Shown: one piece after another, positions 36,537-39,232 of the stretch
How the letters are laid out: every line of letters starts with the position of its first letter
How positions within the stretch are numbered: the stretch's first letter is position 1
Origin: Gemmatimonadetes bacterium 2013_60CM_65_52
GTDB lineage: Bacteria > Gemmatimonadota > Gemmatimonadetes > Gemmatimonadales > Gemmatimonadaceae
Reading direction: 5' to 3'
DNA length: 64,000 nt
Assembly (NCBI GenBank): GCA_002215645.1
Contig: NGFI01000008.1
Span: 62,001-126,000 of the forward strand
Notes under the pieces: model-generated
What the model saw: only the letters and a program-made list of their open reading frames with translations
The model's database searches: none
What the model was told of the DNA's origin: nothing
Program-made: the position numbers and the translations under genes

Positions 36537-37394
36537 ATGGGCCTGTCTGAATCGATCATTCCTGGCGTCAGCCGTGCGATCGAAGGGCTGGACGTCGACG
36601 TGCTGCGAGCGGCCATTCGCGCCGAGTACACGCAGGTGGCGTCCGATCCGGCGCAGGGCTTCCACTTTCACACGGGACGGCGGCTTGCCGGCCTTCTGGG
36701 CTACGACGAGACGTGGTTCGACGGAGTCCCCGAGGACACCGTCGCCTCGTTCGCCGGCACGGGGAACCCGTTCTCGCTCGGTTCGCTTGGCGTAGGCGAG
36801 CATGTGGTTGATGTCGGCTGTGGCGCAGGCATCGACAGCCTCATTGCTGCACGCATGGTCGGGGCGAGCGGCACGGTCGTCGGTGTCGACATGACACCGG
36901 CGATGCTGGGGCGGGCCAGGGAAAGCGCGCGGCTCGGCGGGTTCACGAACGTGCATTTTCATCAGGGGCTCGGCGAGTCGTTGCCCGTGACCGATGGCTG
37001 GGCCGACGTGGTGATTTCGAATGGTGTGCTCAACCTGCTTCCCGACAAGTTCGCGGCGTTGCAGGAGATGGCCCGCGTGGTCAGGCCTGGGGGGCGGCTC
37101 CAGGTCGGCGACATCCTCGTCCAGAAGGACGTCGGCAACAAGGCGCGCCGCGACATCGATCTCTGGAAGAGCTGAATCGCCGGCGCTCTGCAGGAGGCAG
37201 AGCTTCGGGCGACGGTCGTCGCTGCCGGATTCGTCGGATTTGAGATTGCATCGCGTGTGGATGTCTACGCCGGCGCGCCGCAATCGTCGAGCGCGGCCCA
37301 ATTCGGAACGCTGGGCATCAGCTTCCGCGCGCGGAAACCCGTGACGGCCGACGAGTGGCAACAAGCGCTCACCGCGCTGACGTGCTCCCTGTAG
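36537..37394 (+). CDS. ArsM-like SAM methyltransferase with in-frame UGA (candidate selenoprotein)
   Basis: Read through the UGA at 37173-37175, the protein has 285 residues; stopping there gives 212. SAM motif I is VDVGCGAG (91-98), preceded by 'FHTGRRLAGLLGY', both typical of arsenite-methyltransferase-like proteins. The UGA (residue 213) follows 'DLWKS' and precedes 'IAGALQEAELRA'. The family has W-x-x-C-[IL]-x-G-A-L here (AS3MT 'WGECLGGAL'), and the frame continues 72 codons with family-like sequence ending 'ISFRARKP..'. The other As-binding Cys of AS3MT ('SNCVINL') is Gly 163 here ('SNGVLNL'), so canonical arsenite methylation is doubtful. A SECIS-like hairpin follows the UGA. Alternatives: nonsense mutation or sequencing error. 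The end overlaps the kinase start by 13 bases. Confidence 0.75.
37178..37211 (+). promoter_or_regulatory. SECIS-like hairpin downstream of in-frame UGA
   Basis: GCTCTGC (37185-37191) pairs perfectly with GCAGAGC (37197-37203) around the loop AGGAG; CGCC (37178-37181) can pair with GGCG (37208-37211) below an internal loop. The loop begins 16 bases after the UGA and has a G in its second position, matching the general description of bacterial SECIS elements (apical loop of 3-14 bases, ~16-37 bases after UGA, G near the start of the loop). A hairpin in GC-rich coding sequence can arise by chance, so this needs comparative support. Confidence 0.55.
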
Positions 37395-39232
37395 ACGCGA
37401 CGACCGACGACGGCCTCCGGGAGCGGCTCGCGTCGTCGCTCGGTCCGGGTTACAGCATCGAACGCGAACTTGGCGGTGGGGGCATGTCGCGTGTGTACCT
37501 CGCGCACGACGCACGTCTCGGCCGAGACGTGGTCGTCAAGGTGCTCGCGCCCGATCTCGCAGAACAGCTGTCGACGGAACGTTTCGGGCGCGAGGTCCGA
37601 CTTGCGGCGTCGCTACAGGCACCGCACATCGTCCCTGTCCTCATGGCGGGGCAGACGGTGGACGGGCTGCCGTACTACACGATGCCGTTCGTTCGCGGAG
37701 AGTCGTTGCGCGCCCGGTTGACGCGCGTCGGTGCGCTGCCGCTCCGCGAAGGTGTCGCCATCCTGCGTGATGTCGTGAAGGCGTTGGCGTTTGCTCACTC
37801 GGAAGGTCTGGTTCATCGCGACATCAAGCCCGAGAACGTCCTGCTCTCCTCCGGGAGCGCGGTCGTTACCGATTTTGGGATCGCCAAGGCCATTGCGGCG
37901 GCGCGGACACGTGAGGGCGAGCCCGCCAGCGGGTCGGCGGTCCTTGACGGAACTGACGCACTCACGCAACTCGGCACGGCCGTCGGCACGCCGGCGTACA
38001 GCGCGCCCGAACAGGCGGTCGGGGATCCGGACGTCGACCACCGTGCGGATCTGTACTCGTGGGGGATCGTCGCATACGAGGTGCTCGTCGGACACCATCC
38101 GTTCGCCGCGCGCACCACGTATCGCGCGATGGTCACGGCTCACCTCACCGAAGCACCGCACGATATCGCGGCGCTGGCGCCACACCTTCCTGCGCCAGTA
38201 TCCGAGATCATCATGCGCTGTCTCGAGAAAGAGCCGGCGCTGCGGCCCACGGATGCTGCCGAGATCGAGGTTGCGCTCGAGGGACCGAATTGGACGTTGA
38301 CGCCTGCGCGGCGACATCTCGTTCAGCGCGCGCTCCAGCTCACGGACGACGTGTGCCGCCGGCTCGACCGCGAGACCCTCGATGCGCGTCTCCTGGGACG
38401 ATCGCTCGAGTACGTGGAAAATGACGGCGCCCCGCGCGTCCTTTTGTACTGCCTTCACGGGTTGGGACACGATGCCGCCGACTTCACGACCGTGCTCGAG
38501 ACGTCGCCATATCGCGCCATTGCGCCCTCACTCTTCGGCTTCGAGCGCGTCGCTGAGCGACAGCGCGTGCCTATCGCGATCGAGACCCACATCGGGCTCG
38601 TCCGCGAGTTGCTTCGCGACGCGATCTCGCGTGTCTCACCGGACCGGGTGATCCTGATTGGGTTTTCCTCTGGGGCGGACCTCGCGTTGCGTCTGCTCGC
38701 GACGGCGGAGTCAGACAGCCCGCGTGTCGACGCGTGTCTGGCGCTAGGGCCCAATCTCTCGCTCGCAACCTGTTTCGCGAGCCGCGTGTTCTCCAACCTC
38801 CAGAGTGAAGGCGCCGCCGCGCTGCTGTCAGATCTCCAGCGATTTGGCGCCGGGGCGACGAGCCTCGACGAGTGGCTCAACGTGATGGCGTACGTGCTCG
38901 ATGCCCTGCGGAAATTCCGCGACGACGTCGGACCCCTTACGCGTCTCGCCAGCGACATCCTGTCGCCTTTCCAGTCGAGCGACGACGTGTTCGCCGAATG
39001 GTTCCGGAAGGCCAACGGGCGCGTGGCGCTCCTGCGCTGCGTCTTTGAAGAGAGTGATACGTGTGCGGCGCTCGTCCAATCGCTGCGCCTCCGGAATCTG
39101 GACGACGGGGTGCTTGGCTCGCGGTATCGACCGGAGGCGCTCGCGCTTCAGGCGCCCGCGGACCACTTTGCCCTCATCGATCCTGCGCGCGTCGAGCGAC
39201 ACATCGAATCGCTCGTGGCGGCACTGGGCTGA
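37382..39232 (+). CDS. Ser/Thr protein kinase fused to an alpha/beta-hydrolase domain
   Basis: 616 residues from GTG 37382; GTG 37355 is also in frame. Residues ~22-300 are a PknB-type kinase: 'LGGGGMSRVYLA' (P-loop), Lys 53, HRDIKPEN with catalytic Asp 147, DFG at 164 and 'GTPAYSAPEQ'. Residues ~350-616 are not the usual PASTA, TPR or WD40 output but an alpha/beta-hydrolase-like domain: 'LLYCLHGLGHDAADF' near the oxyanion region, nucleophile elbow GFSSG (Ser 429), a candidate Asp in 'FEESDT' and His in 'PADHFALI'. No transmembrane helix is evident, so it is cytoplasmic. A phospho-regulated esterase is a plausible inference. The start overlaps the readthrough end of the methyltransferase. Confidence 0.88.
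   Translation: MLPVDATTDDGLRERLASSLGPGYSIERELGGGGMSRVYLAHDARLGRDVVVKVLAPDLAEQLSTERFGREVRLAASLQAPHIVPVLMAGQTVDGLPYYTMPFVRGESLRARLTRVGALPLREGVAILRDVVKALAFAHSEGLVHRDIKPENVLLSSGSAVVTDFGIAKAIAAARTREGEPASGSAVLDGTDALTQLGTAVGTPAYSAPEQAVGDPDVDHRADLYSWGIVAYEVLVGHHPFAARTTYRAMVTAHLTEAPHDIAALAPHLPAPVSEIIMRCLEKEPALRPTDAAEIEVALEGPNWTLTPARRHLVQRALQLTDDVCRRLDRETLDARLLGRSLEYVENDGAPRVLLYCLHGLGHDAADFTTVLETSPYRAIAPSLFGFERVAERQRVPIAIETHIGLVRELLRDAISRVSPDRVILIGFSSGADLALRLLATAESDSPRVDACLALGPNLSLATCFASRVFSNLQSEGAAALLSDLQRFGAGATSLDEWLNVMAYVLDALRKFRDDVGPLTRLASDILSPFQSSDDVFAEWFRKANGRVALLRCVFEESDTCAALVQSLRLRNLDDGVLGSRYRPEALALQAPADHFALIDPARVERHIESLVAALG

Follow-up and report, generated by a model that had tools for sequence, protein, structure and literature searches.

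The window analysed here, a stretch of 64,000 nucleotides from a Gemmatimonadota genome, contains a methyltransferase-like reading frame interrupted by a TGA codon. This raises the question of whether the codon ends the protein or is read as selenocysteine (Sec), and what an enzyme with Sec at this place might do. Retranslation of 36537–37394 gave ...IDLWKS*IAGALQEAEL...LTALTCSL*, with a single in-frame TGA at codon 213. The 72 open codons that follow the TGA (37173–37175) and the TAG at 37392–37394 are as the earlier note on this DNA had described them. The GC content of the gene is close to that of its surroundings, and Pfam and NCBIfam both class the product as an ArsM-type SAM methyltransferase. 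The features discussed below are as follows.

36537–37394, plus strand: predicted Sec-containing gene of an ArsM-like SAM methyltransferase (285 residues, Sec213, TAG stop), from Pfam and NCBIfam matches, relatives and a structure model
36759–36761, plus strand: codon of Thr75, at the arsenic-ligand position of CmArsM Cys72, ligand lost (alignment with relatives and PDB chains)
36810–36830, plus strand: SAM-binding motif I, DVGCGAG, residues 92–98 (Pfam methyltransferase matches; alignment)
37023–37025, plus strand: codon of Gly163, at the arsenic-ligand position of CmArsM Cys174, ligand lost (alignment with relatives and PDB chains)
37173–37175, plus strand: predicted Sec-UGA codon, residue 213, at the CmArsM Cys224 position (codons of relatives; PDB alignment)
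37185–37203, plus strand: candidate bacterial SECIS core hairpin, stem 37185–37191 / 37197–37203, loop AGGAG 37192–37196
37383–37385, plus strand: codon of Cys283, which lies in the tail EWxxALxxLxC at the C-terminus and is proposed as the thiol partner of Sec213 (tail comparison among Sec and Cys213 genes)
37355–39232, plus strand: protein kinase / alpha-beta hydrolase-like reading frame in its longest form, with a 40-nt overlap onto the 3' end of the methyltransferase gene

An alignment of eight orthologues was used to scan genome contigs for relatives. This yielded 338 sequences, and the best 79 of the 338 were examined. Codon 213 is TGA in 76 of these 79 and TGC in the remaining three, which places Sec or Cys at this residue, the pattern that the earlier note had named as support for its reading. 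By their record titles, the best 79 of 338 come from Chloroflexota, Acidobacteriota, Actinobacteria, Nitrospinota, Nitrospirae, Desulfuromonadales, Myxococcota, Gemmatimonadota, KSB1, Poribacteria, Latescibacterota, Marinimicrobia and others; the subfamily thus spans about a dozen phyla, mostly as metagenome assemblies. The three TGC genes (L087, L093 and L108; WTGCIAGAV) form one clade nested among the Sec genes, and their genomes keep SelB. Like the window protein, they have this domain and have lost the same two cysteines (see below), but they carry Cys213 and lack the SECIS hairpin. More distant homologues from the same phylum as the window (L065–L069; WAECIVGAT) likewise combine Cys213 with Gly163 and have no such hairpin.

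The nearest copies within the order are found in genomes G089 and G045. The G045 copy (L024, G045:C25:245123-248611) is missing some 45 residues around SAM motif I, shows a change of frame and looks broken, either as a pseudogene or through an assembly error. A comparison of the window gene with the relative L023 gave pN/pS values of 0.24/0.67 before the TGA and 0.14/0.57 after it. Selection at the protein level is as strong past the TGA as before it, and the decay of downstream sequence that would have spoken against the earlier note is absent.

Nine nucleotides past the TGA begins a 7-bp stem, GCUCUGC-AGGAG-GCAGAGC. The published model of the bacterial SECIS element has a loop of 3–9 nt, a stem of 4–16 bp, a G in the first two loop positions, 16–37 nt from UGA to loop and an energy of at most -7.5 kcal/mol (PMC13188914). 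The window hairpin fits this model, with a loop of 5 nt, 7 bp, G as the second loop nucleotide and 16 nt between UGA and loop; a 50-nt stretch containing it folds at -25.1 kcal/mol (z -2.4), with values of -21.9 to -25.1 depending on the stretch folded. Because the hairpin lies inside coding sequence, it was evaluated against synonymous shuffles. For the window gene, all seven pairs formed in 263 of 20000 shuffles (p = 0.013), and equal stability was reached in 47 of 2000. Across 105 Sec loci, a few of which are the same gene fetched twice, 80 have 7/7 pairs and 21 have 6/7, with a mean of 6.67 against 4.54 expected from synonymous shuffling and p < 0.05 in 97 of the 105; these counts are not numbers of events, because the sequences of one family are not independent. 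One stem pair varies among the Sec loci (G-C in 84, C-G in 16, A-T in one). The stem codons are nearly frozen despite the availability of synonyms (Ala GCT in 98/103, Ala GCA in 80/83, Glu GAG in 100/103), and all six codons are in use for the Leu that comes next after the stem. Nine Cys homologues have two to four pairs, none below p 0.05, and show no excess of hairpin pairing over synonymous shuffles. An Rfam search with the window and the SECIS region returned no SECIS family match; a hairpin of this kind is not expected in Rfam.

The machinery for Sec incorporation, which the earlier note had proposed to look for, is present in the organism's own genome: tRNA-Sec (selC, 69.6 bits; anticodon tca by ARAGORN), SelB (348.7 bits in the joined frame), SelA (542 bits) and SelD (367 bits). 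The selD gene (L052:1480-2510; G000:C13:706819-707739) lies directly upstream of selC and has an in-frame TGA of its own, in RCAGUAAK, so that SelD is itself a Sec protein and the organism must decode UGA as Sec to make it. Among 52 genomes of relatives that were searched (one of them counted twice), 46 have selB above the cut-off. A full-score selB is missing from six; in one of these the gene is broken by a contig end, and the others are probably incomplete MAGs. We do not count co-occurrence with the Sec machinery as strong evidence, since selC is common among relatives in the window's phylum anyway (75 of 99 over the cut-off, a count that takes in some tRNA-Ser-like matches).

A frame conserved past the UGA, a hairpin that fits the SECIS model, selA, selB, selC and selD, and homologues with Cys at residue 213 are features by which selenoproteins are recognised, and all are found here. 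It would be very surprising if the TGA were a genuine stop that truncates the protein or marks a recent nonsense mutation. TGA is indeed the commonest stop in the window, ending 14 of 22 long reading frames sampled, but the same codon is TGA in 76 relatives from many phyla, purifying selection acts 3' of it, the SECIS hairpin is under synonymous constraint, and a truncated protein would lack both the conserved IAGAL segment and the strands at the C-terminal end of the fold. The use of TGA as a stop elsewhere in the genome in turn argues against its decoding as another amino acid, be it through Trp reassignment or plain read-through. Cys is the sole alternative residue in the relatives, and Trp never occurs; moreover, the Sec machinery is complete. 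An assembly error for TGC or TGT is hard to reconcile with TGA in the nearest in-order copies (G089 and G045) and in many independent assemblies, and we consider such errors and other amino acids together to be highly improbable. It is therefore very likely, judged from these sequence comparisons, that UGA213 is decoded as Sec by the organism's own SelA, SelB, SelC and SelD under the direction of the SECIS hairpin, giving a full-length methyltransferase of ArsM fold that belongs to a known Sec family. The machinery, the Sec or Cys at residue 213, the hairpin and the conservation past the TGA all agree with the selenocysteine that the earlier note had proposed.

A selenoprotein family of arsenite methyltransferases with Sec in a UxxG motif is already established (PMC13188914, where the listing refers to Fomenko et al., 2007). 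Peng et al. (2016) counted 41 such proteins in 39 genomes (PMC5029168), and eight such sequences were found in the GOS data (PMC2398784). The window protein has in common with this family the ArsM-like domain, the UxxG motif (UIAG at 213–216) and a Sec-UGA inside the coding sequence; compared with its single-domain proteins, known here by description, it has a short tail ending in Cys. The families NF041537, NF041536 and NF047649 are cited in PMC13188914 as ArsM-AhpD, ArsM-DUF2284 and UXPK-star selenoproteins (Haft and Tolstoy, 2025). They also have Sec in UxxG, with Gly163 in the ten sequences fetched (see below), and in several of them another thiol or selenol lies close to the C-terminus. 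The window protein is 40–47% identical to them, has Ala73 where theirs is Cys73, and has its own SECIS sequence. A Cys tail stands in the window protein where those proteins carry another Sec-bearing domain or motif. Its match to the three families stops with the methyltransferase part, without the AhpD, DUF2284 or UXPK-star part, and its scores of 234.5, 222 and 205.1 bits fall short of the respective cut-offs (510, 575 and 460). No NF041537 member was found when the genomes of 49 relatives were searched; the same search in the phylum of L129's genome returned two sequences over the cut-off, and further relatives of which some have DUF2284-like or UXPK ends. Ten fetched sequences (L159–L168) all have Gly163 and Val75 and carry UxxG, in one case UxSG, at the position of the UIAG of the window protein. 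By sequence, the window protein is a member, in a distinct subfamily, of the already known Sec-ArsM selenoprotein family.

The window protein is modelled in the ArsM fold (pLDDT 92.9), with residues 271–284 forming a helix at the C-terminus, and the top match of the model in the PDB is CmArsM (4fr0). The three conserved arsenic-binding cysteines of CmArsM are Cys72, Cys174 and Cys224. Alignment to the CmArsM PDB chains equates residue 75 with Cys72, residue 163 with Cys174 and codon 213 with Cys224. The TGA thus stands at the catalytic arsenic-ligand cysteine, where the earlier note had placed it, and Gly163 does take the place of the partner cysteine. The third ligand, Cys72, is also replaced, so that the triad reads Thr75, Gly163 and Sec213, with Sec alone left of the three. 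Canonical ArsM/AS3MT enzymes (CmArsM 4fr0, CrArsM 5evj, human AS3MT 8xt7) share with the window protein the fold, the SAM motif and the catalytic Cys/Sec position, but differ from it at the equivalents of Cys72 and Cys174 and in having Cys rather than Sec at the position of Cys224. The window protein lacks the three-cysteine arsenic site by which ArsM is recognised, and its 211 bits against the ArsM family NF008823 lie below the 263-bit cut-off. The earlier suggestion that Gly163 makes this a non-standard arsenite methyltransferase holds in that respect. We no longer regard Gly163 as specific to the window protein: it is a family trait, shared by members of the known Sec families, and in the best 79 of 338 relatives residue 163 is Gly in 79/79 and residue 75 is Thr in 78/79.

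No close copy of the window gene was found in nine genomes of the same genus, several of them incomplete. In the tree, the window gene, the G089 copy and a Caldilineaceae sequence form a group surrounded mainly by Chloroflexota-type sequences, with moderate supports of 91–92. The missing same-genus copies and this grouping suggest that the gene may have been acquired by horizontal transfer.

The neighbours of the window gene encode a WD40/amidohydrolase protein, a protein kinase, a TonB receptor, a DUF1259 protein and a nitrilase, and give no hint of the substrate. The overlap with the kinase/hydrolase-like frame, in its longest form, makes translational coupling possible. Other members of the subfamily have more telling surroundings. 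The relative L088 has a TusA domain at its C-terminus (PF01206, 31 bits), and a longer C-terminal part is found in L083, L087, L088, L093, L104, L108 and L131. In raw counts over the best 79 of 338 loci, DsrE genes lie near seven and OsmC genes near ten, with DsrE following L087, L088, L093, L108 and L131. Metallo-beta-lactamase/rhodanese-type genes, persulfide dioxygenase-like, occur near 5/79 loci (L089, L091, L094, L102, L154), and ArsR-rhodanese fusion regulators near 4/79 (L083, L091, L102, L128). Together, the TusA fusion and these neighbours point to sulfur chemistry. Two Sec-methyltransferase paralogues, L088 and L091, lie about 10 kb apart on one Anaerolineales contig (JABTUW010000003.1).

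What the enzyme methylates can be read in more than one way. It is quite possible, if short of probable, that the protein methylates arsenite or another metalloid, with Sec and small thiols replacing the three-cysteine site. The ArsM fold, the closest solved structures, the Sec at the catalytic arsenic-ligand position and the curated lists, which name the family arsenite methyltransferase, all favour this. Against it stand the replacement of two of the three arsenic ligands across the subfamily and in known Sec family members, a separate canonical ArsM in the same genome (GCGNP / SNCVINL / VGCVAGAL) and the lack of arsenic genes next to the window gene. A substrate other than arsenite is plausible on these sequence grounds. 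The enzyme might methylate or process a species of sulfur or selenium, such as sulfane sulfur, persulfide or selenide, or some other non-arsenic soft electrophile, a reading that we consider possible, though less likely than not: it draws on the TusA fusion and on the DsrE, OsmC and rhodanese-type genes near some relatives, but such neighbours occur mainly in Chloroflexota-type relatives and none of them lies around the window gene, and their figures are raw counts without a background set. It is unlikely, in our estimate, that the large Sec-methyltransferase subfamily as a whole has given up the three-cysteine site to work with Sec and a C-terminal Cys or TusA on a non-arsenic substrate (sulfur, selenium or other).

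A further clue comes from the C-terminus. The Cys of the tail EWxxALxxLxC is present in 25/25 distinct Sec genes that have the tail (22 plus L096, L098 and L140, with the duplicate L080 and L106, a parsing artefact, not counted), with its position shifted in L084; most Sec relatives among the best 79 of 338 are without the whole tail. In the three Cys213 homologues the tail is present and its Cys absent, a correlation that rests on a single Sec/Cys switch in three related sequences. This pattern, together with the second thiol or selenol that known double selenoproteins have near the same end, suggests that Sec213 may work with a C-terminal partner, as a Sec-Cys pair. In such a mechanism, the selenolate of Sec213, standing where ArsM has its catalytic arsenic-ligand cysteine, would bind a soft electrophile beside SAM; this could be a trivalent metalloid, or else a species of sulfane sulfur or selenium. 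The methyl group of SAM would then move onto the atom bound by Sec213, and Cys283 on the C-terminal helix would free the product or reduce oxidised Sec via an Se-S bond. We put this sequence of binding, methyl transfer and Cys283-dependent release or reduction forward tentatively, at just under an even chance for the whole.

A gene caller that treats TGA as a stop truncates the window protein at residue 212. The subfamily falls below all the curated NCBIfam cut-offs tested here and adds to the Sec enzymes of unassigned substrate. Its Sec and C-terminal Cys, lost together in the Cys forms, offer a testable idea of how a methyltransferase with one selenol may work.
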